A DNA stretch of 42,677 bases, from positions 1 through 42,677 of the forward strand of contig LSCC01000005.1 in the NCBI GenBank assembly GCA_001577215.1, written 5' to 3'. A model generated the notes under the pieces. The model searched no databases. It was not told where the DNA came from and worked only from the letters and a program-made list of their open reading frames with translations. Origin of the DNA: Fidelibacterota bacterium TCS52 (lineage in GTDB: Bacteria > Fidelibacterota > Fidelibacteria > Fidelibacterales > Fidelibacteraceae). This document shows, piece by piece, positions 10,714 to 29,052 of the stretch. Within the stretch, counting starts at the first letter, position 1. Each line of letters begins with the position of its first letter. The translations under genes and the position numbers were made by a program.

Positions 10714-11739
10714 ATGATAATAAGGAGAGAAGATTTATTTTTATTTTTTAATAGATGTATTTCTGAAAAAATCGATAATTATGAAGAGATATTACTTCCA
10801 AAGAAAAATAATAAAAAGGATGAAGCACAATTTTCTTTTATAAAATATAATAATGATAAAAAAATTGAATATGATCTAGAATCATTCAGAACAATTGATC
10901 CGATAAAAACTTTTTTCTATTTATCTCGGGAAAATGTTAGTTCTACAAATATTCATTCAAAAAAACGAATTATTGCAGGAATAAAAGCTTGCGATTTAAA
11001 AGCATTAAATATATTGGATAAAGCATTAATTAATGAAGATTTTATTGATCCTGCTTACAAAAATTTGCGTGACAATACTCTTATTATCAGTACTGATTGT
11101 AATCAAATTACCGATAGTTGCCATTGTAATTTAGTTGGTGGCAAACCTTATGCAGAATCAAATTATGATATTAATTTATCAAAAGTTAATAACAATGACT
11201 ATTATTATATAGTAGCGGGTTCAGAAAAAGGTAAAAAATTTATTGATACTATTAAAGATCATGTTGCTGTTAACGATGCTCCGAATGATGTTGTTTCATT
11301 AGTAGAGGAAAACAGAAAAGACATTTTTAATAAATTAGAAAAAGAAAATAAAGAATTTTATCATACAGATAATTTTAAAGAATTAAAAAATAAAAATGAA
11401 AAACTCTGGATAGAAAACTCAGAAGCTTGTGTTGGTTGTGGTGCTTGTACAAATATCTGCCCAACTTGTTATTGTTTCATTTTAAATGATGAAACAGAAG
11501 CGGAAAAATTTGTTAAAGTTCGTAGTTATGATTCATGTCAATATCATGGTTATGCTCGCGTTGCTGGAGGAGATTCACCAAGAGCAAAAATGCACCAAAG
11601 ATTTCGAAATAGATATTTATGCAAATTCTCATATTTCGATAGTAATTTTGATGAAATTGGTTGCGTCGGGTGTGGAAGATGTATTGATGCTTGTGCTGCC
11701 GAAATCGATTTTAGAAAAGTAGTAAAAGAATTAAGTTAG
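10714..11739 (+). CDS. 4Fe-4S ferredoxin-type subunit resembling sulfhydrogenase beta (HydB) / anaerobic sulfite reductase A (AsrA)
   Basis: Two 4Fe-4S motifs (ACVGCGACTNICPTCYCF; GCVGCGRCIDACAAEIDF) and an N-terminal HydB/AsrA-like domain (AGIKACDLKALNILD). Followed by a HydG/AsrB-like gene. Confidence 0.8.
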   Translation: MIIRREDLFLFFNRCISEKIDNYEEILLPKKNNKKDEAQFSFIKYNNDKKIEYDLESFRTIDPIKTFFYLSRENVSSTNIHSKKRIIAGIKACDLKALNILDKALINEDFIDPAYKNLRDNTLIISTDCNQITDSCHCNLVGGKPYAESNYDINLSKVNNNDYYYIVAGSEKGKKFIDTIKDHVAVNDAPNDVVSLVEENRKDIFNKLEKENKEFYHTDNFKELKNKNEKLWIENSEACVGCGACTNICPTCYCFILNDETEAEKFVKVRSYDSCQYHGYARVAGGDSPRAKMHQRFRNRYLCKFSYFDSNFDEIGCVGCGRCIDACAAEIDFRKVVKELS

Positions 11740-11772
11740 ATAAATATTAACCGATTCAAGGAGAATCAATAT

Positions 11773-12594
11773 ATGAAAAATCCCTTTGAAGTCATTCCCG
11801 GAAAAATATTTGAGATAATTCAAGAATCTCCATTAATTAAAACTCTGCGAATTCGCCCTGAAAAATCAATAAAATTCAAGACAGGGCAATTTGTAGAATT
11901 ATCCATTCCCGGAATTGGAGAAGGCCCATTCACCCCATCTTCTTCTCATTTTGTTTCTAACACAATGGACATTACAATTATGAAAACGGGTTTTGTTACA
12001 GACCATGTTCATGAATTACAGGTAGGTGATAGGGTTGGAATTAGAGGTCCTTACGGTAAGGGCTATCCAATTGAAAAATTTAAAAATAAAGATGTAGTAA
12101 TAATGGGTGGAGGAGTTGGATTGGCTCCTACTAGATCATTATTTCTTACATTAATAGATGAAGTTGATAACTATAAAAGTATTACTTTTTTAGGAGGTGC
12201 CAAAACACCTAAAGATTTTATTTATAAAGATGCAATTAGTAAATGGCGAAAGATCGATAGGGTAAATTTTTTGAGAACAGTCGATTTGGTTCCAGAAGAT
12301 CAAAAATGGGATGAAAATACAGGTGTTGTTACAACTTTACTTGAAAAAATTGATATAGATCCTAAAAATAATCCATCTGTTGTTTGTGGTCCTCCAATAA
12401 TGATGAAATTTGGAACATTTGCATTGAAAGATTATGGTTTTACAGATGAAAACATTTATTTGTCAATGGAAAAGAAAATGTATTGCGGATTTGGAGAATG
12501 TCGTCATTGTGTAATTGGAAAATATTATGCTTGTAAAGACGGTCCTGTTTTCACTTATGAAATGATAAAAAACGAGGAGGCAATTTGGGAGTGA
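11773..12594 (+). CDS. FAD/NAD(P)-binding oxidoreductase resembling sulfhydrogenase gamma (HydG) / AsrB
   Basis: FNR-like fold (RIRPEKSIKFKTGQFVELSIPG; GIRGPYGKGYP; MGGGVGLAPTRSLF; VVCGPPIMMKF) with a C-terminal Fe-S motif KMYCGFGECRHCVIGKYYACKDGPVF. Confidence 0.85.
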   Translation: MKNPFEVIPGKIFEIIQESPLIKTLRIRPEKSIKFKTGQFVELSIPGIGEGPFTPSSSHFVSNTMDITIMKTGFVTDHVHELQVGDRVGIRGPYGKGYPIEKFKNKDVVIMGGGVGLAPTRSLFLTLIDEVDNYKSITFLGGAKTPKDFIYKDAISKWRKIDRVNFLRTVDLVPEDQKWDENTGVVTTLLEKIDIDPKNNPSVVCGPPIMMKFGTFALKDYGFTDENIYLSMEKKMYCGFGECRHCVIGKYYACKDGPVFTYEMIKNEEAIWE

Positions 12595-13094
12595 AAAAAC
12601 TATTAATAAATATACCTAAATTAATGGAATCAAATGTTTCTGCAGATAAGATCGAATGCGAGTATTTATTTCATCGAAAAAATGAGGGATTATTTTCTCT
12701 TTTAGAAATTGCTCAATTTGCATCTTATTGTCGCCAGTGTAAATCAGCTTTTTGCGTAGATGCATGTCCTAAAGAAGCTCTTGAACGACAAGATAATGGA
12801 ACAATTAAAAGATTTAATATGAGATGTGTTGGTTGTAAAAGTTGTGTTCTCGCCTGCCCTTTCGGAACTATTCTACCTGAAACAATTAATTATGTTACAA
12901 CAAAATGTGATAATTGTCTTAACCAACTCAAAGAAAATCCCGATTATATTCCACTTTGTGTAAAAACAGCTCCGGAAGGAACTTTTAAAATGAAAGAAAT
13001 GAAAGACGAAGATCCGGATAAAAAATTATTCTTTGTTGGCAAATATTTGGCAGTGATAAATCCTAATTGGTTACAAAAAGAGGGGAAAAAATGA
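12585..13094 (+). CDS. HycB-like 4Fe-4S dicluster ferredoxin subunit
   Basis: Cys clusters YCRQCKSAFCVDACPKEAL, CVGCKSCVLACPFGTI, TTKCDNCLNQ...PLCVKTAPEG. Overlaps the upstream gene. Confidence 0.82.
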   Translation: MGVKKLLINIPKLMESNVSADKIECEYLFHRKNEGLFSLLEIAQFASYCRQCKSAFCVDACPKEALERQDNGTIKRFNMRCVGCKSCVLACPFGTILPETINYVTTKCDNCLNQLKENPDYIPLCVKTAPEGTFKMKEMKDEDPDKKLFFVGKYLAVINPNWLQKEGKK

Positions 13095-14020
13095 AATTAG
13101 AATACTTATTTTTTATATTTATTTTTCCCGGAATATTATTTACATCTATTCTTGGTTTAATAATTGGTTGGGTTGATAGAAAAGTTTCAGCCAGATTCAC
13201 ATTTAGAGTTGGTCCTCCATTTCTACAAAATTTTAACGACTTTTTTAAATTACTTGGCAAGGAAGCAACTCTTATAAAAAACAGCATACATTCATTATTT
13301 ATAGCAGCTCCATTCGTGGCATTCGGTACATTATCACTTCTTGCAACAATGATTGGTGTAACATTATTTTATGGCATTGGTTTCGGTGGAGATATTTTTG
13401 TGATTATGTATTTGATGATGATTTATTCGGTTATGATAGTTTTAGGTGGTGCATCGACAGGAAATATTTATTCCAGTATCGGAGCAGGTAGAGAAGTAAA
13501 ACTCCTTATTGGAGATGAATTGGTTTTTATTCTTGTATGTTTAGTTCCGATTATCAAATCAGGTTATCAACTTAATTTAGAAAGCATTATTAATTTCCAA
13601 GCATCTAATGGCGCCTTTATTGGCTCAGCTTCTGGTATTCTTGCATTTTTACTTAGCATAATTTGTATTCAAGCAAAAATGACAATGCAGCCATTTGATA
13701 TTCCAGAAGCAGAGACGGAAATAGTAGAAGGTCCGTTAATGGAATATAGTGGTCCTCCACTTGCTTTCTGGAAATTAAATCATTTTATGATGTATGTAAT
13801 TTTTCCATTCTTTTTAATTTTAATCTTCTTAGGCGGTTTTAATTTAACTGGTTTGGGAATTTTATGGTTTATTCTAAAATATGTTGGGATTGTCGTTGTG
13901 ATGATAATTATTAAAAATACAAATCCAAGAATTAGAACAGATACCGCTTTAAATTTTTTCTGGAAATATGCTTCACCAATTGGACTATTAGCAATTATTT
14001 TAGCAATATTAGGAGTGTAA
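13091..14020 (+). CDS. Membrane subunit of group-4 hydrogenase (NuoH / EchB / MbhM-like)
   Basis: Multi-TM protein with WVDRKVSARFTFRVGPPFLQNFNDFFKLLGKE and MQPFDIPEAETEIVEGPLMEYSGPPLAFWKL (NuoH signature). The ATG at 13091 (RBS gaggggaa) is preferred over the ORF-track start at 13067. Confidence 0.92.
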   Translation: MKLEYLFFIFIFPGILFTSILGLIIGWVDRKVSARFTFRVGPPFLQNFNDFFKLLGKEATLIKNSIHSLFIAAPFVAFGTLSLLATMIGVTLFYGIGFGGDIFVIMYLMMIYSVMIVLGGASTGNIYSSIGAGREVKLLIGDELVFILVCLVPIIKSGYQLNLESIINFQASNGAFIGSASGILAFLLSIICIQAKMTMQPFDIPEAETEIVEGPLMEYSGPPLAFWKLNHFMMYVIFPFFLILIFLGGFNLTGLGILWFILKYVGIVVVMIIIKNTNPRIRTDTALNFFWKYASPIGLLAIILAILGV

Positions 14021-14021
14021 A

Positions 14022-14441
14022 ATGGGATGGTATAATAAGAGATTAGCGAAATCATTATGGGTTTTTCACATTAGTGGTTCACCTTGTAATAATTGCGATA
14101 TTGAAATATTGGATTTAATCACACCTAAATATGATGTTGAAAGGTTGGGAATAAAATTAGTCGGCTCAATTAGACATGCAGATGTTTTACTTGTAACCGG
14201 AGTATTCAATGAAAAGGTAGCACCTAAAATAAAAAAGATTTATGAACAAGCACCAAAACCAATTTTTGTAGTTGCAATAGGAAGTTGCCCTTCATCCGGA
14301 ACAGTTTTCAAAAATAGTTACAATATAGTTGAAAATAGGGAATCTGTTATTCCAATAGATATGTATATTCCCGGATGTCCTCCAAAACCAGAAGCAATGA
14401 TAGAAGGAGTAGCAAAATTAATGGAGAAATTAAATGGCTGA
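14022..14441 (+). CDS. [NiFe]-hydrogenase small subunit, NuoB-like (EchC/MbhJ-like)
   Basis: SPCNNCDIEILDLITPKYDVERLGIKLVGSIRHADVLLVTG...IGSCPSSG...IPGCPPKPEAMIEG. Confidence 0.92.
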   Translation: MGWYNKRLAKSLWVFHISGSPCNNCDIEILDLITPKYDVERLGIKLVGSIRHADVLLVTGVFNEKVAPKIKKIYEQAPKPIFVVAIGSCPSSGTVFKNSYNIVENRESVIPIDMYIPGCPPKPEAMIEGVAKLMEKLNG

Positions 14442-14859
14442 TTATCAAGAATTTATAAATGAAATGGGATCTAAAATAAAAGTTGAGATCAAAAAGAAAA
14501 GGCGTCTATATTTTCAAGTAAAAAATGACGATATTCTTGAAATTATCGACCATCTTTTTAATAAAATGGGTTGCAGATTATCAACTGCAACTGCAACAGA
14601 GACATATAATGGGGTTGAAGCACTTTATCATTTTTCTGATGACAAAACAGGGAATTATTACTGTCCACGAGTTGTTATGAAAGATAAAGAGAACCCTGAA
14701 ATGAATTCAATAACACCAATTGTAAAAGGTGCCGAATGGATTGAAAGAGAAATGGCAGAATGGTGGGGAATAAAATTTATTGGACATCCGAGACCAATAC
14801 CACTATTATCAAGAAATCATCCAAAAGCTCCAAATAAACCAATGCGATGTGGGAGATAA
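14434..14859 (+). CDS. NuoC-like subunit (EchD/MbhK-like)
   Basis: EWIEREMAEWWGIKFIGHPRPIPLL is a NuoC/30 kDa-subunit-like signature. Lies between the small- and large-subunit genes. Confidence 0.85.
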   Translation: MADYQEFINEMGSKIKVEIKKKRRLYFQVKNDDILEIIDHLFNKMGCRLSTATATETYNGVEALYHFSDDKTGNYYCPRVVMKDKENPEMNSITPIVKGAEWIEREMAEWWGIKFIGHPRPIPLLSRNHPKAPNKPMRCGR

Positions 14860-14865
14860 AATTTT

Positions 14866-16074
14866 ATGAAAACAAAAAGCAATTTAAAAAATATTGTAAA
14901 TAAAAATCAAATTCCACTTGGTCCTTTTCATCCGTTATTAGAGGAAGCTGAATACTTTAATATTACCGTTGATGGTGAAACGGTTGTTGATATTGATATG
15001 GATACCGGTTGGATGCATCGTGGACATGAATTTATTTCTGAGCAGAAGACATTTACACAGTCAATTTATCTAGTTGAAAGAATTTGTGGAATTTGTTCAA
15101 CTTCTCACCCACTTGCTTGTGTTCATGCTGTTGAAGATGTAGACAATATTGAAATTCCGTTGAGAGGTAGATATATTAGAACTTTAGTTGGAGAATTAGA
15201 AAGAATTCATAGTCATCTTCTCTGGGTCGGATTAGCCGGACATTTTATTGGATATGACACAGTTTGGATGTGGGCTTGGAAATATCGTGAACCTGTTTTA
15301 CAAATGTTTGAGATCATTTCAGGAAACCGTAATCATTACGGCATGTTGAGAGTTGGTGGTGTAGGAAAAGATGTTGATCCTGCATCTGTACCTGAATTGA
15401 ATAAAATCCTTGACACATTAGATAAAAAAATGGATATGATAGCTAAAATAGCTAACGATGATCCTGTTTTAAGATCAAGACTGGTTAATGTAGGAATTCT
15501 GTCAAAAAAAGATGCAATTGATTTTTGTGCTGTTGGACCAACTAGCAGAGCTTCCGGAGTAAGAGGAGATATTAGAAAAGATGAGCCGACAGATGCTTAT
15601 GATCTTGTAGATTTTAATGAAATTATTACTAAAAACGGTGATGTCTATGATAAGTTTGTGGTTCGTGTTTTGGAAACATTAGAATCAATTAAAATATGTC
15701 GCCAATGCTTGAATAAATTGAAAATAATTGATGGACCGATTTTAAATAATGTAAAAGAAATATCAGCTGGTGAAGGTATTGGAAGATATGAAGCTCCTCG
15801 GGGTGAAGTTTTCCATTATGTTAGGACAGATGGAACAAATCGTCCGATCAGACATAAAGTTCGTGCCCCAAGTTATAATAATATTCCAACTTTTCAGGCA
15901 AGCTGTAAAGGAATTCCTATCGCTGACGCACTTATAACTTTAGCCGGAGTTGATCCTTGTTATTGTTGCACCGAAAGAGCGATAAGAGTAACCGACAAGA
16001 ACAATAAAAAGAATAATATAGATCTATTAAAATTATCTCGTGATAAAACTTCTAACATCAGGGGGAATTTCTAA
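14866..16074 (+). CDS. Group-4 [NiFe]-hydrogenase large (catalytic) subunit, NuoD-like (EchE/MbhL-like)
   Basis: L1 motif ERICGICSTSHPLACVHAVE and L2 motif AGVDPCYCCTERAIRV, giving both CxxC pairs for Ni-Fe ligation. Confidence 0.94.
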   Translation: MKTKSNLKNIVNKNQIPLGPFHPLLEEAEYFNITVDGETVVDIDMDTGWMHRGHEFISEQKTFTQSIYLVERICGICSTSHPLACVHAVEDVDNIEIPLRGRYIRTLVGELERIHSHLLWVGLAGHFIGYDTVWMWAWKYREPVLQMFEIISGNRNHYGMLRVGGVGKDVDPASVPELNKILDTLDKKMDMIAKIANDDPVLRSRLVNVGILSKKDAIDFCAVGPTSRASGVRGDIRKDEPTDAYDLVDFNEIITKNGDVYDKFVVRVLETLESIKICRQCLNKLKIIDGPILNNVKEISAGEGIGRYEAPRGEVFHYVRTDGTNRPIRHKVRAPSYNNIPTFQASCKGIPIADALITLAGVDPCYCCTERAIRVTDKNNKKNNIDLLKLSRDKTSNIRGNF

Positions 16075-17888
16075 TGTTAAATAACAATCTGCTTTTATTA
16101 ATTTTAATTCCACTTGCTATTTCATTTCTGAATATTTTCTTGCCTACAATTCTAAGAAAAATTCTTGTTTTTGCAACTCTGGTAGTAACTTCAATAATTA
16201 CAATAAATCTTTTTAATGCAAATAATGAAACGTTTACATTATTTTCAAACACCATTCTTTCTCTTGATAAAATGTCTTACTTTGCCTTAGCTGGAATACA
16301 ATTACTTTCTTTCATAATTTTGATATTTTCACTAAAAGGTGTAGAAAATAATATTCAGAAACAATTTTTTGCGTTATATCCCCTAACATTAGCTTTCAGT
16401 AACGGAGTGATCTTAAGTGAACACTCTTTCAGTTTTTTAATTTTCTGGGGTTTGTCCGGATTAACATTATATTTATTCAATTTACTTGGAAAAACAAAAG
16501 ATACTCCTAAAACCGCAAAGAAAACTTTTTTAATTATCGGTGGTAGTGATGCTTTTCTAATTATGGGATTAGCTATTGTTTGGTTTTTAAATCCCGGAAA
16601 CTCTTGGTCATTATTATCAACAAATATTCCACTTGTTGATGGATTATCTTATACGGCATTTTTCTTATTTTTAATCGCTTCATTTTCTAAAGCAGGTGGT
16701 TTTCCATTTCATACTTGGGTTCCGGATTATAGCAAGGATTCCCCTGTGGAAAGTGTCGCATTTTTACCGGCTTCATTAGATAAATTACTAGGTATTTATC
16801 TGTTAGCAAGAATGGTTACTACTCTTTTTGAAATAGATATTTTAGTAAATTTGATTATAGTAACTTTAGGTGCAATTACAATAATTATTGCAGCAATGAT
16901 GGCAATGATACAGAATAATGGAAGAAAACTTCTCGGTTATTCCACCATTAGTCAAGTTGGATATATGATTATGGGAATTGGCAGTGGAAGTATTCTCGCT
17001 TTTGCCGGCGGATTATTTCATATGATAAATCATACAATTTACAAATCCAATTTATTTCTTGCACTCGGTTCTGTAGAGAAACGAACTGGAACAAATGAAT
17101 TAAATAAACTTGGTGGATTAGGAAAAATAATGCCCTTTACTTTTATTATGGCTCTTATCGGCACATTATCCACTTCTGGCGTTCCACCTTTTAATGGATT
17201 TTTCTCTAAGTGGATGATCTATCAAGGTATAATTGAAAAAACTGCGACATTAACTGTAGGATATCAGATTTGGATGTTAATTTGCTTAATTCTCGCTATC
17301 TTTGGTTCTGCTTTAACCTTGGCAGTTTTTATAAAATTCATTCATGCAATTTTTCTTGGAAAATATCAGAAAAAATTTGCTAAGATCAAAAGGACACCAA
17401 TTAATCAAATTCTGGCAACCGGATTGCTTTCTTCACTCTGTATTATCTTTGGAATTTGGGCAGTAAAAATTCCACTAAATAATTTTATTATTCCAGCATT
17501 ACAGGATTTAGGACTTAGTGCTCCACAATTTATTGGTACATATAATCCACAATTAATAATCTTACTATTTGGGTTAACATTTGTTACAGGAATGATTATT
17601 TACTTGTTTACAAAAAAAGTAAAATTTGATAATAATTATCTTGGTGGAATGGATGCAGAAGAAAGATTTAGAATTCTTGGTACAGAATTTTATAATGAAG
17701 TAAAAAATATGAAACCGCTAAATACATTGTATAGTTGGGCAGAAAAAAAATATTTTGATATTTATGATATTACTACTAAATTCACTAATTCTACAGCGAA
17801 ATTATTACAACAAGCACATCCCGGACAATTGCACCTCTATTTATTATACATTGTTGTCGGTTTGCTTATATTTTTATTGTTAATTTAA
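16074..17888 (+). CDS. NuoL/MrpA-N/MrpD-like antiporter subunit (604 aa) with a C-terminal amphipathic stretch plus TM
   Basis: Multi-TM; FSKAGGFPFHTWVPDYSKDSPVESVAFLPASLDKLLGIYLL; NGRKLLGYSTISQVGYMIMGIG; STSGVPPFNGFFSKWMIYQ. Confidence 0.88.
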   Translation: MLNNNLLLLILIPLAISFLNIFLPTILRKILVFATLVVTSIITINLFNANNETFTLFSNTILSLDKMSYFALAGIQLLSFIILIFSLKGVENNIQKQFFALYPLTLAFSNGVILSEHSFSFLIFWGLSGLTLYLFNLLGKTKDTPKTAKKTFLIIGGSDAFLIMGLAIVWFLNPGNSWSLLSTNIPLVDGLSYTAFFLFLIASFSKAGGFPFHTWVPDYSKDSPVESVAFLPASLDKLLGIYLLARMVTTLFEIDILVNLIIVTLGAITIIIAAMMAMIQNNGRKLLGYSTISQVGYMIMGIGSGSILAFAGGLFHMINHTIYKSNLFLALGSVEKRTGTNELNKLGGLGKIMPFTFIMALIGTLSTSGVPPFNGFFSKWMIYQGIIEKTATLTVGYQIWMLICLILAIFGSALTLAVFIKFIHAIFLGKYQKKFAKIKRTPINQILATGLLSSLCIIFGIWAVKIPLNNFIIPALQDLGLSAPQFIGTYNPQLIILLFGLTFVTGMIIYLFTKKVKFDNNYLGGMDAEERFRILGTEFYNEVKNMKPLNTLYSWAEKKYFDIYDITTKFTNSTAKLLQQAHPGQLHLYLLYIVVGLLIFLLLI

Positions 17889-17904
17889 AATAACGGAGGA
17901 ATAA

Positions 17905-18438
17905 ATGCCTATAGAGACCTGGCTTATTTTTATATTAAGCTTTATGATAATCGGATCAATTGTAGCTTTAGAAATTAAAGATATTCTTTCAGCAGTAATT
18001 GCTGTTGGTGTTGTTGGCCTCGGTGTTTCACTTTCATTTATCTTTTTACAAGCTCCAGATTTGGCAATTGTTCAATTCCTATTCGAAATATTCGCATTGA
18101 TCATTATGGTAAGAGCATTTGTAAAAAAAGATTATCATCAAGAAGAACCATCAAAAGTAAATAAAATACTCATTGGAATTACAATTATTACTCTGCTTGC
18201 GATTTTATATTTTACTGCTTCAATATTGAACTTGCTTCCTGAATTTGGTGAACCACTTATGAATACCGCACAATATTATTTGAATAATGGAGCTTCAGAT
18301 ACAGGAGCCGCAAATTTAGTTACATCAATTATTTTGGACTATAGAGCTTACGACACGCTTGGTGAAGTAACTGTATTGTTTACAGCAATTCTTGGTGCAT
18401 TGACAGTTTTACGAATTAAATCAAAATCACATAGATAG
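17905..18438 (+). CDS. MbhD+MbhE-like (MrpA C-terminal, DUF4040) membrane protein
   Basis: FLQAPDLAIVQFLFEIFALIIMVRAF (DUF4040-like) and NLVTSIILDYRAYDTLGEVTVLFTAILGALTVLR (MbhE/MrpA-C-like). Confidence 0.85.
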   Translation: MPIETWLIFILSFMIIGSIVALEIKDILSAVIAVGVVGLGVSLSFIFLQAPDLAIVQFLFEIFALIIMVRAFVKKDYHQEEPSKVNKILIGITIITLLAILYFTASILNLLPEFGEPLMNTAQYYLNNGASDTGAANLVTSIILDYRAYDTLGEVTVLFTAILGALTVLRIKSKSHR

Positions 18439-18448
18439 GAGATATTCA

Positions 18449-18898
18449 ATGGACAATAATTCCGGAATGACAATCATTGTGAAAACAATTACGAGAATTA
18501 CAGTTCCGATAATAATTCTTTATGGATGTTATATTATTTTTCATGGGCATTTGACTCCAGGTGGTGGATTTGCCGGTGGAGTTATTATTGCATTGGCCCT
18601 ATTGAATGTTATGATAGCATTTGGTAGAGAATTCACAAATAATTGGTTAAATATCAATTTTTTAGAAAAATTGGAATCAATAAGTGCTACATTATTTCTT
18701 GTTTTGGGAATTCTTGGATTTTTAATTGGAACCACATTTTTATTAAATTTTATTTCTAAAGGAGAATTATTCAGATTACTTAGTGCAGGAACAATACCGG
18801 TGTTAAATATAATAATCGGAATAAAAGTGGCAATGTCACTATTTCTTGTAGTTTGGGTATTAGCCGGTTTAAAATTAGACGAAGGAGAATCATTATGA
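18449..18898 (+). CDS. mrpB: Na+/H+ antiporter subunit MrpB/MnhB-like (MbhF)
   Basis: YIIFHGHLTPGGGFAGGVIIALALL is the MrpB signature. Confidence 0.92.
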   Translation: MDNNSGMTIIVKTITRITVPIIILYGCYIIFHGHLTPGGGFAGGVIIALALLNVMIAFGREFTNNWLNINFLEKLESISATLFLVLGILGFLIGTTFLLNFISKGELFRLLSAGTIPVLNIIIGIKVAMSLFLVVWVLAGLKLDEGESL

Positions 18899-19233
18899 TC
18901 CTATATTTATTATGTTTTACTTTAATGTTAGTGGGATTATATGGAATTTTAACTAAAAGAGATTTGATCAAAATAATTCTTTCTGCTTCAATTATGGGAT
19001 ATGCTACAAATTTATTACTAATTTTATTTGCCTATAGAAATGGAAGTATCTTTCCAATATTGAGAAAGGGAGTTGAAATAATACCAATGGTTGATCCACT
19101 TCCACAAGCATTAGTTCTTACATCAATCGTAATTGAATTAGGAACCACTGCACTACTTGTTGCATTGGCATTAAAATTATTTCAAAAATATAAAACTTAT
19201 GACATAACAAAAATAAGGAAGCTATCAGGATGA
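18895..19233 (+). CDS. mrpC: Na+/H+ antiporter subunit MrpC/MnhC-like, NuoK-like (MbhG)
   Basis: LVGLYGILTKRDLIKIILSASIMGYATNLLLI; DPLPQALVLTSIVIELGTTALLVALAL. ATG at 18895 chosen, overlapping the mrpB end. Confidence 0.92.
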   Translation: MILYLLCFTLMLVGLYGILTKRDLIKIILSASIMGYATNLLLILFAYRNGSIFPILRKGVEIIPMVDPLPQALVLTSIVIELGTTALLVALALKLFQKYKTYDITKIRKLSG

Positions 19234-20705
19234 TCTTACCATTTTTTATTATTATTCCTTTATTGACTGCCTTTTTAATTGCAATTGTTGCAGGGAAAAA
19301 AGATAATTTCGCTAACGGATTATCAATTTTTTCGTCACTATTACTTCTGTTGGGAGCAATTTATAATTTCTTTACACAAAACCAAGAAGTAATTGTTTAC
19401 AAAATTGGAAACTGGAAAGCACCGATTGGTATAAATTTAGTACAAGATTCGCTCACTATTTTTATGCTTATAATTGTTGGATTGATCTCACTTACATCGC
19501 TTATTTACTCGAGACAATATATTCGTCATATTTCTACAAATTGGAAATATTATGCTCTATTTATGTTTCTTATTACAGGAATGAATGGTGTTATTGTTAC
19601 GGGAGATCTTTTCAACCTGTTTGTTTTTATGGAGATTGCATTAATTTCTGCATTTGCCCTTGTTGCTTACGGAGGAAAAGCAGAAGAATTCGAAGCGGCT
19701 TTCAAATATGCAATTATGGGTGTCGTTTCTTCCACTTTTATATTAGTCGGAATTGCTATTCTTTATTCAGCAACTTCCACACTGACATTAGCAAAAATTG
19801 CCGAACAAATTCCAAATATCAGTTATAAAATAGTATATTTGGTAGGTGGAATATTTCTCATGGGATTTGGTTTAAAAGCAGCTATTATTCCATTCCATAC
19901 TTGGTTACCGGATGCTCATTCATCGGCTCCAGCTCCAATCTCAGCGATGTTATCAGGTGTATTGATCAAGGTTCTCGGAATATATGCTATAATTAGGATC
20001 TTTTTTAATGTATTCGGAGCACCCGAATTTTTCCTTAATATTTTTATGACATTGGGCGTTATTTCTATTTTAATTGCAGGATTTCTTGCAATTGCTCAAT
20101 GGGATATGAAAAGATTACTTGCTTACAGTAGTATCAGTCAAATAGGTTATATTCTTTTAGGACTAGGAATTGGTTCAACTTTAGGAATATTAGGTGCAGT
20201 TTTTCACTTATTTAATCATGCAATTTTCAAATCACTTCTTTTTTATAATGCAGGTTCAGTTGAAATGACTACCGGAACTCGCGACTTAAAGAAAATGGGA
20301 AAGCTTACAAAATTAATGCCTGTTACTTCAAAAACATCTATGATCGCTTCTCTTGCAATTTCAGGAATCCCACCTTTTAACGGATTCTTTAGTAAACTTA
20401 TTATTATTATTGCTGCTATTCAATCTGGACATCCATTCTTAACTGCTTTAGCCGTGATAGGAAGTATTCAGACATTAGCCGCTTTACTAAAAGTACAACG
20501 CTTTGGATTTCATAGTGAAAATAAAACAAAAATTACAAAAAATATAACGAGTTTCGGCATGAAATTTGCGATGATAACTCTAGCTTTTTTATGTTTCGCA
20601 GGAGCAATTGTAATCATTCCAGAAATTAAAGAAGTAACTTTAGATCCAATCGTTGAAGTAATTAACAATAATAGTGAATATATGAAAATAGTACTCGGGA
20701 GGTAA
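19230..20705 (+). CDS. mrpD: Na+/H+ antiporter subunit MrpD/MnhD-like (MbhH)
   Basis: GDLFNLFVFMEIALISAFALVAYGG (TM5 Glu present), AAIIPFHTWLPDAHSSAPAPISAMLSGVLIKVLGIYAI, DMKRLLAYSSISQIGYILLGLG. Confidence 0.94.
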   Translation: MILPFFIIIPLLTAFLIAIVAGKKDNFANGLSIFSSLLLLLGAIYNFFTQNQEVIVYKIGNWKAPIGINLVQDSLTIFMLIIVGLISLTSLIYSRQYIRHISTNWKYYALFMFLITGMNGVIVTGDLFNLFVFMEIALISAFALVAYGGKAEEFEAAFKYAIMGVVSSTFILVGIAILYSATSTLTLAKIAEQIPNISYKIVYLVGGIFLMGFGLKAAIIPFHTWLPDAHSSAPAPISAMLSGVLIKVLGIYAIIRIFFNVFGAPEFFLNIFMTLGVISILIAGFLAIAQWDMKRLLAYSSISQIGYILLGLGIGSTLGILGAVFHLFNHAIFKSLLFYNAGSVEMTTGTRDLKKMGKLTKLMPVTSKTSMIASLAISGIPPFNGFFSKLIIIIAAIQSGHPFLTALAVIGSIQTLAALLKVQRFGFHSENKTKITKNITSFGMKFAMITLAFLCFAGAIVIIPEIKEVTLDPIVEVINNNSEYMKIVLGR

Positions 20706-20711
20706 AAATAT

Positions 20712-21218
20712 ATGTCTCTAAAAAATAGAAGTAGGATAACTGTTTTTTTCTTATCATTGCTTGTCTGGTTTGCACTTACTGATATTACAAATCTACAAGA
20801 GGTAATTCTTGGTATTATTATTGCTATTTTTGTTGCCTTAATAGCCGGTCATTTTTTGATAACAACAGAAAAAAGAAAACATATTTTTAAAAGGATCGGA
20901 TATGCGCTTTTGTATATTATTAAATTCTTATGGGAAATTATAAAAGCAAATGTTCATGTTGCATATTTGGTTGTACATCCAAAAGTACCGATTAATCCCG
21001 GTATTGTTAAAATTAAAACTAAGCTTACAAAAGAATCAGCAATGACCATTCTTGCAAATTCAATAACACTTACACCCGGAACATTAACAGTTGATATCAA
21101 TCTAGAAAAACAAGAATTGTATATTCATTGTATTGATGTACATTCAAAAAAAATAGAAGACAACACAAAAGATATTGGTAATCGATTTGAAAAAATCTTA
21201 ATGGAGGTATTCGAATGA
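20712..21218 (+). CDS. mrpE: Na+/H+ antiporter subunit MrpE/MnhE-like (MbhA)
   Basis: ESAMTILANSITLTPGTLTVDINLEKQELYIHCIDV is the MrpE signature. Confidence 0.92.
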   Translation: MSLKNRSRITVFFLSLLVWFALTDITNLQEVILGIIIAIFVALIAGHFLITTEKRKHIFKRIGYALLYIIKFLWEIIKANVHVAYLVVHPKVPINPGIVKIKTKLTKESAMTILANSITLTPGTLTVDINLEKQELYIHCIDVHSKKIEDNTKDIGNRFEKILMEVFE

Positions 21219-21553
21219 AAATATTTCGTTGGATACTTGGAATAATTATTTTAGGCATTTTAGCATATTGTAATTTCTTTGTATACAAAGGTGAAATCAT
21301 ATTTAAATTAATTAATGTAATCCTATTTGCTTCATTGTTCGTTCTATATAGAGTGATTTTTGGGCCATCTGCCGCAGATAGAATTGTAGCTGTTGATATT
21401 TTCGGTATATTAATTATTGGATTATTAGCTATTATTGGATTATTTTATGATGAATCATTTTATATGGATATTGCACTTATTTGGGGGTTATTAAGTTTTA
21501 TTGCTTCACTTGCATTCGCAAAAATTTTAGAAAGGAGGCATCTTGATGATTAG
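21215..21553 (+). CDS. mrpF: Na+/H+ antiporter subunit MrpF/MnhF-like (MbhB)
   Basis: YRVIFGPSAADRIVAVDIFGILIIGLLAIIGLFYDESFYMDIALIWGLLSFIASLAFAK. Confidence 0.92.
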   Translation: MKIFRWILGIIILGILAYCNFFVYKGEIIFKLINVILFASLFVLYRVIFGPSAADRIVAVDIFGILIIGLLAIIGLFYDESFYMDIALIWGLLSFIASLAFAKILERRHLDD

Positions 21554-21881
21554 AGAAATAATTGGATTTGGTTTGATATATATTGGCGTTGTATTTGATT
21601 TTTTCGGTGTATTAGGATTAATTCGACTTCCTGACGTTTATAACCGTTTACAGGCTGCTACTAAAAGTGTTACTTTCGGCACTGGTGGAATTTTACTTGG
21701 AATATTTGTTCTTCAAGGGTTCAATAATTTTGGATTTAAGGCAATTTTAGGAATAATATTCATCTTCCTCGCCTCTCCTACCGCAGCTCATGCAATTTCA
21801 CATGCTTCTCACCGTAGCAATATCAAATTAGACGAAAAAACAGTCGTCGATCAATATGCAGAAGATAACGAAAATAAATAA
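21543..21881 (+). CDS. mrpG: Na+/H+ antiporter subunit MrpG/MnhG-like (MbhC)
   Basis: GVLGLIRLPDVYNRLQAATKSVTFGTGGILLG...SPTAAHAISHASHRSN. Confidence 0.92.
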   Translation: MMIREIIGFGLIYIGVVFDFFGVLGLIRLPDVYNRLQAATKSVTFGTGGILLGIFVLQGFNNFGFKAILGIIFIFLASPTAAHAISHASHRSNIKLDEKTVVDQYAEDNENK

Positions 21882-21908
21882 TTATTCTTTTTATAAATGG
21901 AGTAAAGA

Positions 21909-22511
21909 ATGTTTTTACCAAAATTACGAGAAGTAAAAGAAGCATTAACCTCTTTTTTTACAGCACCTTATACAACAAAATTTCCCAAAGAACCATTTGA
22001 ACCATCAAAACATTATCGTGGTTTTCCAAGATATGACGAAGAAGAATGCATTGGTTGTGGTGCTTGTGTTCAAGTTTGTCCGGCAACTGCTATCGAATTA
22101 TCTGACGATAAAGAAAATTTAAAACGTGTTCTAAGGGTAAACTATACATCCTGTATTCAATGTGGACAATGCGAAGAACATTGTACCACAGAAAAAGGTA
22201 TTATATGTACGACTGAATATTCGCACTCCACAAGCGATCTCAATGATCCTGACACTGTAGAAACAATCGAAAAAGAAATTGTTTTCTGTGAAGTATGCGG
22301 TGAAGTTATCGGATGTCGTGATCATCTTAACTGGATAAAGGAAAGATTAGGAGCAAAAGCTTATGCACATCCTAATTTCTTATTGGAAACACAAGCTCAA
22401 TTTTTTGATTTAGATCCTTCTAAACCAAAAGATAGAATACGAAGAGAAGATCAAATAAAAGAAGTATGCCCTAAATGCCGTTACAAAATCGTAGTTTCGG
22501 ATGAATTTTAG
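21909..22511 (+). CDS. NuoI/MbhN-like 4Fe-4S ferredoxin subunit with an extra Cys-rich C-terminal region
   Basis: EECIGCGACVQVCPATAI and TSCIQCGQCEEHCTTEKGI, then CEVCGEVIGCRDH...CPKCRYK at the C-terminus. Confidence 0.85.
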   Translation: MFLPKLREVKEALTSFFTAPYTTKFPKEPFEPSKHYRGFPRYDEEECIGCGACVQVCPATAIELSDDKENLKRVLRVNYTSCIQCGQCEEHCTTEKGIICTTEYSHSTSDLNDPDTVETIEKEIVFCEVCGEVIGCRDHLNWIKERLGAKAYAHPNFLLETQAQFFDLDPSKPKDRIRREDQIKEVCPKCRYKIVVSDEF

Positions 22512-22965
22512 TACTCTTGATAAATTACTTTTAAAATATAATAAAAAAGAAATCGTTTTTGTTGGATTGGGAAATCATGATCGTGGTGATGATGCAGCAG
22601 GTCTAATACTGCTTGATAAATTAGAAAATATTACGGATTATTCTAATTCCAACTTTATAAATGCAGGTAAAAATCCAGAAAATCATTTACAAGAAATACT
22701 TGATCATAATCCAAAAATCGTTGTTTTTATTGACAGCACTGAATTTAACAAAGACCCGGGAACAATTTCATTAATTGAATCGGAAAAAATTGATAAGTTT
22801 GATTTTAGTACTCATACATTTTCTATCGCTCTAATTGAAAAATATTTACTTAAACATAAAGATTTAAAAACCATTTATATTGGAATTCAACCAAAATCAA
22901 TGAATTTTGGTGATAAAGTTTCGAATGTTGTAAAAAATGAAATTGATATTTTTTTTAGTAAATAG
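22501..22965 (+). CDS. Hydrogenase maturation protease (HycI-like)
   Basis: FVGLGNHDRGDDAAGLILLDKL, IDSTEFNKDPGTI, FSTHTFSI, IYIGIQPKSMNFG. Overlaps the upstream gene. Confidence 0.85.
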   Translation: MNFSTLDKLLLKYNKKEIVFVGLGNHDRGDDAAGLILLDKLENITDYSNSNFINAGKNPENHLQEILDHNPKIVVFIDSTEFNKDPGTISLIESEKIDKFDFSTHTFSIALIEKYLLKHKDLKTIYIGIQPKSMNFGDKVSNVVKNEIDIFFSK

Positions 22966-23845: not shown

Positions 23846-24505
23846 ATGCAAGAAAAAGAAATCAAAGTAATGAAAAAGATTTTAGCCACAAATGACAAAA
23901 TGGCCATGGAATTAAGAAATATTTTAAAAGAAAAGGGCGTTTTATTTATAAATTTAATGAGTTCACCCGGATCCGGAAAAACCACATTATTGGAAAATAC
24001 TGCAAAAAATTTTAATGGTAAATTAGCAGTAATCGAAGGTGATATTGAAACTACACTTGATTCTCAAAGAATATCAAACGCTGGAATGCTTTCTTATCAA
24101 ATAAATACCGGTCCTTTTGGTGGCGATTGTCATCTTGAATCAGGTTGGATCAAATCAGCTTTAGAAGAAATTGACTTGACTAATATTGATATTTTATTTG
24201 TTGAAAATATTGGAAATCTTGTTTGCCCTGCAGAATTTGATGTTGGTGCTCATTTTAACGTAGTTGTTTTAAGTACTACTGAAGGTGAAGACAAACCATT
24301 AAAATATCCTCTCGCTTTTCAAAATTCTTCTGTTTGTATTATTACAAAAACCGATCTAACACCTTACTTAGAAATAGATCTAAAACAATTAAAAGAAAAT
24401 ATTAAAAAAGTTAATCCAAAATTGAAAATATTGGAATTATCCTCAAAAACCGGTAACGGAATGGAAAATTGGTTTAATTTTTTAAATAAAAATAAATTAT
24501 CTTAA
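23846..24505 (+). CDS. hypB: Hydrogenase nickel incorporation GTPase HypB
   Basis: SSPGSGKTTLLENT, GDIETTLDSQRI, GPFGGDCHLESGWIKSAL (metal-site CH), VENIGNLVCPAEFDVG, KTDLTPYL. Confidence 0.95.
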   Translation: MQEKEIKVMKKILATNDKMAMELRNILKEKGVLFINLMSSPGSGKTTLLENTAKNFNGKLAVIEGDIETTLDSQRISNAGMLSYQINTGPFGGDCHLESGWIKSALEEIDLTNIDILFVENIGNLVCPAEFDVGAHFNVVVLSTTEGEDKPLKYPLAFQNSSVCIITKTDLTPYLEIDLKQLKENIKKVNPKLKILELSSKTGNGMENWFNFLNKNKLS

Positions 24506-24521
24506 ATGGGAGAAGAACAAT

Positions 24522-26324
24522 ATGGAAAAAACCGTAAATAATATTATTACCCATCACGCAAATGATAAAAAACGTCTCATGGATATGTTACTGAATATTC
24601 AAGAACAATTCAACTATATACCTGATGATGCAATTGATATTTTAGTTGAAAAATTAGATCTACCAAAGGTGCATATTTTAGAAACAATCTCTTTTTATCA
24701 TTTTCTTACACTAAAATACACCGGTAAATATACAATTTATTTAAATGACAGTGTTTCAGCATATATGAATGGTCGTAAAGAAGTAGCAAAAGCTTTTGAA
24801 GAAGAAATTGGGATTAAATTCAATTCGGTAACAAATGATGGACTGATTGGACTTTTCGACACTTCTTGTATTGGAATGAGCGATCAGGAACCATCAGCTT
24901 TAATTAATAATAAAGTTTTTACAAATCTTTCACCTGAAAAAGTAAAAGAGATTGTAAAAAACATGAAAGATGGAAAAGATATTAACAATTTAATGAAAGC
25001 AAATCTTGGCGATGGGAAAAACAGTCACAAACTTATTCATTCTATGGTCAATAACAATATTCATATAAAGAAAGCAATTTTATCTGACGATTATATACCT
25101 GGTTCGGCATTGTTGAAAATAATTGAACAAGAGAGAATGGAAGTTGTGAATGAGATAGAAAATGCTGAGCTTCGTGGTCGTGGTGGAGCAGGTTTTCCAA
25201 CTGACCTAAAATGGAAGTTTACAGCAAAAACACCTGAAGGTAAAAGATACATATTTTGTAATGCAGACGAAGGAGAGCCTGGGACTTTTAAAGATCGAGT
25301 AATACTAACTGAAAAACCTGAACTCATATTTGAAGGAATGGCTATATGTGGATATGCAATAGATTCTGATGAAGGAATACTTTATCTTCGTCATGAATAT
25401 AAATATTTGAAAAAATATTTAGAAAATATCTTAGATAAAATGCGTAAAAGAAATCTGCTTGGTAAAAATATTCTAGGACAAGATGGATTTAATTTTGATA
25501 TAAGAATTCAATTAGGCGGTGGAGCTTATGTCTGTGGTGAAGAAACTGCTTTACTTGAATCTACTGAAGGCAACAGAGGTGAACCTCGCTACAAGCCCCC
25601 CTTCCCTGCTGTTAAAGGATATTTAGATAGACCAACAGTAATTAATAATGTAGAAACACTTTGCTCCGTTGTGAAAATATTAAATAAAGGTAATTATTGG
25701 TTCAAAAAAATGGGAACAGAAGAGTCCCGGGGAACAAAATTATTAAGTATTTCAGGTGACTGTGAAAAACTGGGAATTTACGAGGTTGAATGGGGAATAA
25801 CAATAACTGAAATGCTTCATATGGCCGGAGCAAGTAATGTACAGGCAGTACAAATCGGTGGACCTTCCGGAAACTGTATTTCACAGGATGAATTTGAAAA
25901 TCAAATTCGTTATTCAGACCTCGGAACAGGTGGCTCAATTGTGATAATCGGCAATAAACGAGATTTATTAAAAGATATAGTTTTAAATTATACAAATTTC
26001 TTTATTGAAGAATCTTGTGGATCTTGTGTACCATGTAGAAATTTAATAGTTATCTATCGCAATACATTACAAAAAATTATTAATGGTAAAGGTGTCCAAG
26101 CTGATTTAGATAATATGTTAGAATGGGAAAAAGTAATGAAAATGAATAGGTGTGGATTAGGGCAAACTTCATTTCATCCAATTGTTACAACATTGAAAAA
26201 TTTTCCGAAACTTTATGAAAGCAAAATCCTTGAAGATTCAGACATAATCTCAACTTTTGACATTAATTCTGCAATTAAAGAATATTGTAATGCAACCGGA
26301 AGAAAACCAAATATTGAGGAGTAA
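24522..26324 (+). CDS. hoxF: HoxF-like NuoE-NuoF fusion, diaphorase subunit of an NAD-linked [NiFe]-hydrogenase
   Basis: N-terminal NuoE-like domain; RGRGGAGFPTDLKWKFTA (NAD/FMN); CGEETALLESTEGNRGEPRYKPPFPAVKGYLDRPTVINNVET; 4Fe-4S ESCGSCVPCRNL...MNRCGLGQTS. Confidence 0.93.
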   Translation: MEKTVNNIITHHANDKKRLMDMLLNIQEQFNYIPDDAIDILVEKLDLPKVHILETISFYHFLTLKYTGKYTIYLNDSVSAYMNGRKEVAKAFEEEIGIKFNSVTNDGLIGLFDTSCIGMSDQEPSALINNKVFTNLSPEKVKEIVKNMKDGKDINNLMKANLGDGKNSHKLIHSMVNNNIHIKKAILSDDYIPGSALLKIIEQERMEVVNEIENAELRGRGGAGFPTDLKWKFTAKTPEGKRYIFCNADEGEPGTFKDRVILTEKPELIFEGMAICGYAIDSDEGILYLRHEYKYLKKYLENILDKMRKRNLLGKNILGQDGFNFDIRIQLGGGAYVCGEETALLESTEGNRGEPRYKPPFPAVKGYLDRPTVINNVETLCSVVKILNKGNYWFKKMGTEESRGTKLLSISGDCEKLGIYEVEWGITITEMLHMAGASNVQAVQIGGPSGNCISQDEFENQIRYSDLGTGGSIVIIGNKRDLLKDIVLNYTNFFIEESCGSCVPCRNLIVIYRNTLQKIINGKGVQADLDNMLEWEKVMKMNRCGLGQTSFHPIVTTLKNFPKLYESKILEDSDIISTFDINSAIKEYCNATGRKPNIEE

Positions 26325-26326
26325 TA

Positions 26327-27040
26327 ATGAAAAAGAAATTTAAAATATTAATTGATGGAAAAGAGTTATCTGTAAAGCATGGTCAAACAATACTTGAAGT
26401 TGCAAGTAACAATGGAATATATATTCCAACGTTATGCAATTATGTAAATCTTGAGCCACAAGCTTCATGTAGAGTTTGCAGTGTAAAAGTAAATGGACGC
26501 CCAATGACTGCTTGTACTACAACAGTCAGACCTAAAATGGAAATTGAAAACGATACAAAAGAAATGAATGAACTTAGAAAAATCATTATTGAAACAATGT
26601 TTATTACAGGAAATCATTTTTGTCCATCTTGCGAAAAAAGCGGCAATTGTGAATTACAAGCACTTGCTTATAGATTGAAAATGGATGTTCCACAATTTTC
26701 ATATTCATTTTCTAATAAAGATATTGATGCTTCAAATCCAAAATTAATGATTGATCACAACAGATGTATAAAATGTAAAAGATGCGCTCGTGGAATAAAA
26801 ACTGATGATGGTAAAGATATCTTTGCATTCAAAAATAGAGGTAAAAAAATTATGATCAGTATCGATAACGAATTAGCAAAAAATATTTCAGATGAAAAAG
26901 CTCAAGAAGCAATGGACATCTGCCCTGTTGGTGCTATTCTGAAAAAAGAACGCGGGTTTATCGACCCTATCGGAACTCGCAAATATGATAATAAACCAAT
27001 CGGTAGTGATATAGAAAAACTTATGGAGGTTCGATCATGA
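26327..27040 (+). CDS. hoxU: HoxU-like Fe-S subunit (NuoG N-terminal type)
   Basis: 2Fe-2S TLCNYVNLEPQASCRVCSVKVNGRPMTACTT; NHFCPSCEKSGNCELQ; RCIKCKRCARG...CPVGAI. Confidence 0.93.
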   Translation: MKKKFKILIDGKELSVKHGQTILEVASNNGIYIPTLCNYVNLEPQASCRVCSVKVNGRPMTACTTTVRPKMEIENDTKEMNELRKIIIETMFITGNHFCPSCEKSGNCELQALAYRLKMDVPQFSYSFSNKDIDASNPKLMIDHNRCIKCKRCARGIKTDDGKDIFAFKNRGKKIMISIDNELAKNISDEKAQEAMDICPVGAILKKERGFIDPIGTRKYDNKPIGSDIEKLMEVRS

Positions 27041-27585
27041 GTAAACCGATAGTAGCAACCACAGCTTTAGCAAGTTGTTTTGGATGCCACATGTCTTTTT
27101 TAGATATTGATGATAGAATTTTGCAATTAATTGACTTGGTTGATTTTAATAAATCTCCAATTGATGACATAAAGACATTTACAAAAAAATGTGACATTGG
27201 AATAATTGAAGGTGGCGTCGCAAATTCTGAGAATTATCATGTCCTAAAAGAATTCCGTAAAAATTGTAAAATATTAATTTCATTAGGTGAATGTGCAATA
27301 ATGGGTGGCTTACCGGCAATGAGAAATAATAAAGACAGTATTGAAAGCTGTTTAAAAGAAGCTTATCAAGATTCACCATCTACAATCAATAAAAATAATA
27401 TTCTACCAAATGATGAAGAATTGCCTATGATTTTAGATAAAGTTTATCCTTGTCATGAGGTTGTAAAAATTGATTATTTTCTTCCGGGCTGTGCACCAAG
27501 AGCTGATTTAATTTGGGACGCACTTGTAGCTCTATTGAATGGCAAAGAAATTGATCCTGAATACAAAACATATAAATTTGATTAA
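27037..27585 (+). CDS. hoxY: HoxY-like [NiFe]-hydrogenase small subunit
   Basis: LASCFGCHMSFLDIDDRILQLIDLVDF, IIEGGVAN, SLGECAIMGGLPAMRN, FLPGCAPRADLIWDAL. Confidence 0.95.
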   Translation: MSKPIVATTALASCFGCHMSFLDIDDRILQLIDLVDFNKSPIDDIKTFTKKCDIGIIEGGVANSENYHVLKEFRKNCKILISLGECAIMGGLPAMRNNKDSIESCLKEAYQDSPSTINKNNILPNDEELPMILDKVYPCHEVVKIDYFLPGCAPRADLIWDALVALLNGKEIDPEYKTYKFD

Positions 27586-27597
27586 TAAGAGGTAAGA

Positions 27598-29052
27598 ATG
27601 GGTAAAAAAATCACAATTGAGCCGGTAACACGAGTTGAAGGTCATGGAAAAGTAACCATACATTTAGATGATAATAATAATTTCAAACGGAGTAGATTGC
27701 ATATTGTAGAATTTCGTGGATTCGAGAAATTTATCCAGGGAAGACCTTATTGGGAAGCACCTGTGACGGTACAACGATTATGTGGAATATGTCCGGTTAG
27801 CCATCACTTGGCAGCAGCAAAAGCAATGGATGTTATTGTGGGAGCTGGAACTGGAGATGGGTTAACACCAACCGGTGAAAAAATGAGACGTTTAATGCAT
27901 TTTGGCCAGGTTTTTCAATCTCATGTTTTACATTTCTTCCATCTCGCTTCACCAGATTTGTTATTTGGAATTGATGGTGATCCGGCTATCAGAAATGTAA
28001 TTGGTATTGCAAAAATGCATAAAGAATTGGCAGTACAGGCAGTAATGATGCGTAAATATGGACAAGAAATTATCAAAGTTACAGCCGGTAAAAAAATTCA
28101 TGGAACAGGTGCAATTCCAGGTGGAATAAATAGACATCTTGAAATTCACAACAAAATATCATTGATCAACGGCCCTGATCCAATGAATATTGATAAAATG
28201 ATAGAATGGTCACTTGGTGGACTTGATTTTTTCAAAAACTATCACAAAGATCATAAAGATGTCATTGATAATTTTGCAGCATATCCTTCTAAACATCTTA
28301 GTATGGTACGAAAAGACGGTGCATTAGATCTTTATCATGGTGTTTTAAGAGCAATTGATTCTGAAGGAAATAAAATATTAAATGATGTTGATACGCAGGA
28401 TTATTTAAAACATATTGCTGAAGAAGTACGAAGTTGGAGCTATATGAAATTTCCTTATTTGAAAAAATATGGACCTAAAGACGGTTGGTATAGAGTTGGC
28501 CCTTTAGCTCGTTTGAATACCGTTGATTTTATTCCATCTCCATTGGCTCAAAAAGAATTTGAGATATTTCAGGCATATACTGATGGAAAACCTAATAATA
28601 TGTCAATGCATTATCATTGGGCTCGTTTGATCGAAATTCTTCACTGTGCAGAAATGATGAAAGAATTACTAAATGATCCGAATTTAATGAAAGGTGAATT
28701 AGTTACAAAAGGTAAAAAAGGAAATGAAGGGATTGGAGTATTGGAAGCACCTAGAGGAACACTATTTCATCATTATAAAATCAACAAAGATGACCAAATC
28801 ACAATGGCCAACTTGATTGTTTCAACCACAAATAACAATATACCTATGAATCTCGCTGTAGAAAGTGCAGCCAAACAATTCATTTCTGGACAAGAAAAAA
28901 TCGATGAAGGAATGTTAAATGCAGTTGAAGTTGGTATTCGTGCTTATGATCCATGTTTGAGTTGTGCAACTCACGCAATCGGAAAATTACCATTACAAGT
29001 CAAACTTTATGATTCAAACAATAATTTGTTAGATATTAAAACAAAGGATTAA
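27598..29052 (+). CDS. hoxH: HoxH-like [NiFe]-hydrogenase large subunit
   Basis: N-terminal ITIEPVTRVEGHGKVTIHL, L1 RLCGICPVSHHLAAAKAMD, L2 AYDPCLSCATHAIGKLPLQV. Confidence 0.97.
   Translation: MGKKITIEPVTRVEGHGKVTIHLDDNNNFKRSRLHIVEFRGFEKFIQGRPYWEAPVTVQRLCGICPVSHHLAAAKAMDVIVGAGTGDGLTPTGEKMRRLMHFGQVFQSHVLHFFHLASPDLLFGIDGDPAIRNVIGIAKMHKELAVQAVMMRKYGQEIIKVTAGKKIHGTGAIPGGINRHLEIHNKISLINGPDPMNIDKMIEWSLGGLDFFKNYHKDHKDVIDNFAAYPSKHLSMVRKDGALDLYHGVLRAIDSEGNKILNDVDTQDYLKHIAEEVRSWSYMKFPYLKKYGPKDGWYRVGPLARLNTVDFIPSPLAQKEFEIFQAYTDGKPNNMSMHYHWARLIEILHCAEMMKELLNDPNLMKGELVTKGKKGNEGIGVLEAPRGTLFHHYKINKDDQITMANLIVSTTNNNIPMNLAVESAAKQFISGQEKIDEGMLNAVEVGIRAYDPCLSCATHAIGKLPLQVKLYDSNNNLLDIKTKD

Follow-up and report, generated by a model that had tools for sequence, protein, structure and literature searches.

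A conserved operon joining sulfhydrogenase-type AsrAB and CooF genes to an Mrp-linked group-4 [NiFe] hydrogenase, a candidate NAD(P)H-linked membrane complex

Gene content of the operon

We analysed a stretch of 42,677 nucleotides from Fidelibacterota bacterium TCS52 (contig LSCC01000005.1, hereafter the window), in which a run of genes for an Mrp-linked group-4 [NiFe] hydrogenase is headed by genes for two sulfhydrogenase-like subunits, AsrA and AsrB, and a CooF-like ferredoxin (Table 1). The open reading frame (ORF) listing gives 17 co-directional ORFs on the + strand between 10714 and 22965, and neighbours overlap or leave short gaps. A first-pass annotation made from the letters alone had described this strand, order and spacing, and the gene families it named were borne out where tested, yet its count of 16 genes was wrong. 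Searches with hidden Markov models (HMMs) of protein families covered all operon products except MrpC, MrpD, MrpF and MrpG, which were assigned from their ORFs and conserved position in relatives. A Shine-Dalgarno-like GGAGG lies ahead of the AsrA ATG. Because relatives and gene overlaps point there, later start codons than those of the mechanical ORFs are suggested for CooF (GTG 12591, not TTG 12585), NuoH (ATG 13091 rather than TTG 13067) and MrpC (ATG 18895 rather than 18853). The host is an uncultured, marine-type member of Candidatus Neomarinimicrobiota; the genome measures 1.18 Mb and is 70% complete, its nearest named relative by large subunit is a Candidatus Neomarinimicrobiota metagenome-assembled genome (MAG; 90% identity), and a PLSDB search for a plasmid origin gave no match.

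Table 1 Features of the operon and its downstream neighbours in the window
Feature	Position	Strand	Basis
AsrA/HydB (sulfhydrogenase beta)-like Fe-S subunit, 341 aa, operon start	10714..11739	+	family search, fold
AsrB/HydG (sulfhydrogenase gamma)-like FAD/NAD(P)/2Fe-2S subunit	11773..12594	+	family search
CooF/HycB-like ferredoxin, 12 conserved Cys, three 4Fe-4S clusters predicted	12591..13094	+	family search
NuoH/MbhM-like membrane anchor	13091..14020	+	ORF, family search, relatives
Hydrogenase small subunit, NuoB/MbhJ-like, one 4Fe-4S cluster	14022..14441	+	family search
NuoC/MbhK-like subunit	14434..14859	+	family search
[NiFe] large subunit, NuoD/MbhL-like, both CxxC motifs	14866..16074	+	NuoD and NiFeSe_Hases match
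NuoL/MrpA N-part-like antiporter subunit, 604 aa	16074..17888	+	family search; best solved chain MrpA 7qru_A
MbhD+MbhE (MrpA C-terminal part)	17905..18438	+	family search
MrpB	18449..18898	+	family search
MrpC	18895..19233	+	position and conservation
MrpD antiporter subunit	19230..20705	+	position and conservation
MrpE	20712..21218	+	PF01899
MrpF	21215..21553	+	position and conservation
MrpG	21543..21881	+	position and conservation
NuoI/HycF-like 2x[4Fe-4S] ferredoxin, C-terminal CxxC...CxxC site	21909..22511	+	family search
HycI-type hydrogenase maturation protease	22501..22965	+	PF01750
Group-3d [NiFe] Hox cluster: HypB, fused HoxE-HoxF (24522-26324), HoxU, HoxY, HoxH, HoxW-type protease	23846..29570
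CBS-domain-like protein	29586..30044
V/A-type ATPase-like subunit genes	37185..41463	-	recognised by eye

Hydrogenase core and Mrp arm

Both Ni ligand motifs of the large subunit, RICGIC and DPCYCC, are intact, and their cysteines (C74, C77, C365 and C368) are kept in 57/57 sequences and invariant in a 12-row alignment. By sequence the protein is therefore a true hydrogenase, and its identification as an Mbx/Ehr relic is ruled out. The complex-I-like NuoH, NuoB, NuoC, NuoD and NuoI subunits are all encoded, a feature of the respiratory H2-evolving [NiFe] group 4, and the closest solved chains belong to Pyrococcus furiosus Mbh: 6cfw_L for the large subunit (288 bits, followed by HycE of formate hydrogenlyase at 221) and MbhJ, 6cfw_J, for the NuoB-like product (155 bits; next 113). 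The large subunit is also 68% identical to that of a locus (L098) from MAG 3300025698_8 of Celaenobacter antarcticus, reported to carry a group 4g Mrp-linked hydrogenase (PMC8542988), which makes 4g a candidate HydDB subgroup for the enzyme here. A C-terminal tail of about 31 residues extends beyond DPCYCCTER, and the alignment to the 380-residue 6cfw_L stops at that chain's end, at query R371; the tail is probably what HycI is expected to cut off, right after R371.

Among the Mrp-type subunits, MrpB, MrpE and MbhD/E were recognised by HMM and MrpC, MrpD, MrpF and MrpG by place. Given that the NuoL-like product best matches MrpA and that the next ORF corresponds to the MrpA C-terminal part, all of Mrp A-G seems to be present, MrpA being split over two genes. 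No formate dehydrogenase catalytic subunit was found in the operon, either in the ORF listing or by family searches.

AsrA, AsrB and the ferredoxin subunits

In family searches the first operon product matches ShyB (147 bits), HydB (140) and AsrA (126), the second AsrB (223) and HydG (192), and the third is a HycB/CooF/DmsB-type ferredoxin. Against P. furiosus sulfhydrogenase I, AsrA matches the beta subunit at E 8e-35 and AsrB the gamma subunit at E 1e-53. The predicted AsrA model (predicted local distance difference test, pLDDT, 86) has template modelling (TM) scores of 0.73-0.77 to 9nf0_B and 9nez_B, the next match being far lower. Cluster-ligating cysteines are near-invariant across relatives in AsrA, AsrB, CooF, NuoB and NuoI; those of the AsrB 2Fe-2S cluster are kept in 45/45 sequences, and the 12 invariant cysteines of CooF are enough for three clusters. 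The NuoI-like product resembles HycF of formate hydrogenlyase, including its C-terminal Cys pairs (C127, C130, C187 and C190), which are almost invariant (at least 31/32) and mark an extra metal site.

Recurrence and co-occurrence in relatives

The linkage of AsrAB-CooF to an Mrp-linked group-4 hydrogenase is real. AsrA, AsrB and CooF occupy the same place in 11 genomes of the phylum whose large subunits are 73-90% identical (in one of these, G053, AsrA is cut by the contig end), and a contig scan found 60 loci from about ten phyla (Neomarinimicrobiota, Ignavibacteriota, KSB1, Calditrichota, Aminicenantota, Cloacimonadota, Thermotogota, Latescibacterota, Planctomycetota and Omnitrophota). Forty-three loci, each with at least 4.3 kb of upstream DNA, could be assessed for the upstream genes: CooF stands in the expected place in 43/43, AsrA in 41/43 and AsrB in 40/43, and in all 43 the contig also holds AsrA and AsrB, whether whole or as remnants. 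Loss of AsrB from L112 was rejected, since the gene is there in two pieces, as was loss of AsrAB from L093 and L098, where a CxxC-less, Mrp-linked Mbx/Ehr-like complex has been inserted between AsrAB and CooF on the same contig. AsrB, CooF and NuoH are joined by stop/start overlaps in most loci. A chance neighbourhood or an assembly artefact is rejected by recurrence in some 60 loci and many genomes, and the HydB/HydG-like and HycB-like genes singled out in the first-pass annotation thus form a conserved unit with this hydrogenase.

Moreover, of 149 Neomarinimicrobiota genomes 20 have the large subunit, and 19 of these also carry an AsrA orthologue (at least 47% identity; the next AsrA-like matches lie mostly at 28-33%, with E no better than 6e-44), against 0/129 of the remainder. 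The condition that would have counted against the linkage, HydBG-like genes occurring mostly away from the hydrogenase in relatives, was thus not observed. AsrA and the large subunit lie on different contigs in G068. Pairwise distances of AsrA, AsrB and CooF follow those of NuoD (Mantel r 0.80-0.89), a range comparable to that of the core subunits (0.66-0.93), with a contribution from common ancestry.

A proposed NAD(P)H-linked complex

We suggest that these genes probably encode one membrane complex, in which an Mbh-type [NiFe] hydrogenase and a complete Mrp arm have gained an added pyridine-nucleotide input. NAD(P)H would hand a hydride to the flavin adenine dinucleotide (FAD) of AsrB, from where electrons would run over the AsrB 2Fe-2S cluster and those of AsrA to CooF (three clusters), NuoI (two) and NuoB (one), and finally to the [NiFe] site. 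There protons would be reduced reversibly to H2, while NuoH and the Mrp arm would couple electron flow to movement of H+ or Na+. In formate hydrogenlyase, HycB and HycF sit between formate dehydrogenase and the core, and by analogy the same wiring may hold here, with AsrAB replacing formate dehydrogenase. Ordinarily the complex would reoxidise NAD(P)H from fermentation and release H2. By textbook potentials the step from NADH to H2 is close to balance when H2 stands at about 10 Pa, with NADPH somewhat better placed; an ion-coupled complex could consequently conserve a small amount of energy when H2 is low and spend the gradient when it is higher. In favour of the proposal speak the recurrence of AsrAB-CooF with the hydrogenase, their co-occurrence across genomes, the intact cluster and Ni ligand motifs, the AsrA fold, the absence of AsrC and the genomes with no other [NiFe] large subunit.

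Several observations weigh against this proposal. At typical H2 levels NADH would have almost no driving force for making H2, so that pumping would be weak or reversed, and the AsrB sequence does not decide between NAD and NADP. The AlphaFold model of CooF is poor (mean pLDDT 70.7, query-normalised TM below 0.4 against every solved chain), and hence its fold assignment rests on sequence. AsrA was not found in G094, a 70% complete genome that does have the hydrogenase. Shared descent by itself would inflate the Mantel values given above. Finally, ferredoxin was assumed as the donor for close published relatives (PMC8542988).

This last assumption leads to the alternative that survives best, which we nevertheless consider unlikely: a plain ferredoxin-driven Mbh in the style of HydDB groups 4d and 4g, with ferredoxin docking on NuoI or CooF, H2 produced, Na+ pumped, and AsrAB a side branch making NAD(P)H from ferredoxin or H2. 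The core is indeed closest to P. furiosus Mbh, and HydDB likewise favours ferredoxin, 4g being a loose group of unsettled role that is putatively ferredoxin-coupled (PMC5037454). However, AsrAB follows the hydrogenase almost perfectly, and the HycB- and HycF-like subunits of formate hydrogenlyase type point to a docked partner rather than to free ferredoxin. Additionally, every one of the 14 genomes checked has an RnfC match, over its full length in 12 and as partial pieces in two, which gives ferredoxin another outlet through a separate ferredoxin-to-NADH route.

The presence of Rnf would also suit a confurcating or bifurcating complex, in which NAD(P)H and ferredoxin jointly make H2, or the reverse, with pumping optional; the AsrB flavin and the NuoI/CooF clusters offer two possible entry points. 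The first-pass annotation had raised this idea, which we now regard as quite improbable: no bifurcating flavin subunit (NfnL, HdrA, EtfAB or HydB/NuoF-type) was found between 10714 and 22965 by ORF listing or family searches, a single DHODB-type FAD protein is the only one in the operon, and an ion gradient could stand in for confurcation. HydB/HydG of sulfhydrogenase I are not known to bifurcate.

Sulfhydrogenases reduce sulfur in vitro, and the family names of AsrA and AsrB might likewise suggest a sulfite, sulfur or polysulfide reductase module fed with H2 electrons by the hydrogenase. We think this very improbable, as the closest solved relative is a group-3b NADPH diaphorase and the catalytic AsrC is absent from 14/14 genomes checked, which also rejects membership of an AsrABC sulfite reductase.

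The partner of AsrAB might alternatively lie elsewhere, as a complete group-3d Hox cluster begins about 900 bp downstream of the operon. HypB-HoxEF follow the Mbh operon in another genome (G001, L055), and FeFe hydrogenases occur in 8/14 genomes. H2 metabolism is consequently redundant in some genomes, though not in all. That AsrAB serves another soluble hydrogenase and is a mere neighbour here, as the usual group-3b partners of HydB/HydG and the nearby Hox cluster might suggest, is the least probable explanation, since a search at E 1e-5 shows no additional [NiFe] large subunit in five of the 14 genomes (G041, G050, G056, G059 and G082), the Hox cluster owns a fused HoxEF diaphorase, and co-occurrence with the group-4 hydrogenase is near-perfect.

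If AsrAB-CooF is the input of the proposed NAD(P)H-linked complex, models of metabolism in Cloacimonadota, Neomarinimicrobiota, Ignavibacteriota and KSB1 lineages would have to treat the enzyme as one that reoxidises NAD(P)H rather than ferredoxin, giving a concrete role to hydrogenases whose electron donor has so far been guessed. A complex I-like pump would then be linked to NAD(P)H in modular fashion through a sulfhydrogenase-type diaphorase, not NuoEFG. More tentatively, and with a probability we place a little below even, a class of group-4 hydrogenases in about ten phyla may interconvert NAD(P)H and H2 against a Na+/H+ gradient within one complex, allowing fermenters and syntrophs to make H2 without ferredoxin, formate or bifurcation.

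Variants and neighbouring genes

Two loci (L106, L108), the deepest relatives analysed, fall outside the window's clade and encode, between AsrB and CooF, a protein of 483 aa that carries a molybdopterin Fe4S4 domain; its gene is absent from the window and its clade, and among the loci analysed is confined to L106/L108-type relatives. CooF of these two loci retains an N-terminal CxxCxxHxxxC motif and the last cysteine of CVATCP, whereas the other 47 CooF sequences are without that cysteine, the N-terminal motif also being missing in those aligned. A fourth CooF cluster site thus goes hand in hand with the molybdopterin partner in the sequences compared, two loci having both, and one may have been lost along with the other. 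The molybdopterin-bearing variant itself is known from these two loci and a published one (Saganbacteria RX5A, see below). The clade would thus display a step of module change, in which the extra cluster site goes with the molybdopterin protein.

A second Mrp-linked NuoBCDH complex, with a fused NuoI-like protein of about 610 aa, is encoded in three loci, one of them elsewhere in the window's own genome (L053 at G000:C41; L121 and L122). In L121 and L122 its NuoD copies lack any CxxC and it is flanked by AsrAB on one side and CooF on the other, an arrangement that might let AsrAB serve both complexes. In L091 (positions 249-2488) an NfnS/NfnL-like pair lies directly 5' of NuoD, and the genes for NuoH, NuoB and NuoC are missing, which reflects either an odd contig or a true rearrangement.

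In 9 Neomarinimicrobiota-type loci the gene immediately before AsrA encodes a CheY-only response regulator, and in 15/23 assessable loci HycI is immediately followed by a PilS-like histidine kinase (L067, L083, L084, L086 and L079 are among the regulator or kinase examples). They possibly regulate this operon; the window has neither gene. CBS-domain-like proteins, possible nucleotide sensors, adjoin both hydrogenase clusters (Table 1 and L098:7099-7485).

Comparison with known systems

The gene set itself is not wholly new. Saganbacteria RX5A (Matheus Carnevali et al. 2019) carries in one region a group-4 hydrogenase, Mrp-like genes, cooF, asrA and asrB, all shared with the window, together with a molybdopterin oxidoreductase that the window and its clade lack; its hydrogenase, seen there in one lineage and called enigmatic, is nearest those of Zixibacteria and Omnitrophica, and its authors propose an Mbh-like role with an oxidoreductase module (PMC6349859). 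No characterised complex of this composition was found in mainly open-licence literature; this publication anticipates the genes with one addition. No report of the molybdopterin-free gene set, its spread or an NAD(P)H assignment was found in the open-licence literature, subscription papers lying mostly outside the search.

P. furiosus Mbh (PDB 6cfw) provides the closest solved NuoD and NuoB relatives and has the Mrp-type arm in common with the window, in which MrpA is complete over two genes, giving two antiporter-like subunits. To our knowledge, it has no AsrAB/CooF input. HydDB group 4d Mbh enzymes take ferredoxin as sole donor and have no diaphorase, whereas the operon described here carries conserved AsrAB-CooF genes. 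E. coli formate hydrogenlyase (PDB 7z0s) shares the HycB- and HycF-like ferredoxins, the group-4 core and the HycF C-terminal Cys pairs, but takes its input from formate dehydrogenase and lacks both Mrp B-G and AsrAB. The beta and gamma subunits of P. furiosus soluble hydrogenase I (PDB 9nez, 9nf0) are homologous to AsrA and AsrB, with the same AsrA fold and cluster motifs; that enzyme is NADPH-dependent, and an NADPH-bound structure exists. The catalytic subunits of our operon belong to group 4, not group 3b, so that sulfhydrogenase HydBGDA shares only these beta and gamma homologues. In P. furiosus they feed a soluble group-3b enzyme, whereas here they would feed a membrane group-4 enzyme, presumably via CooF.

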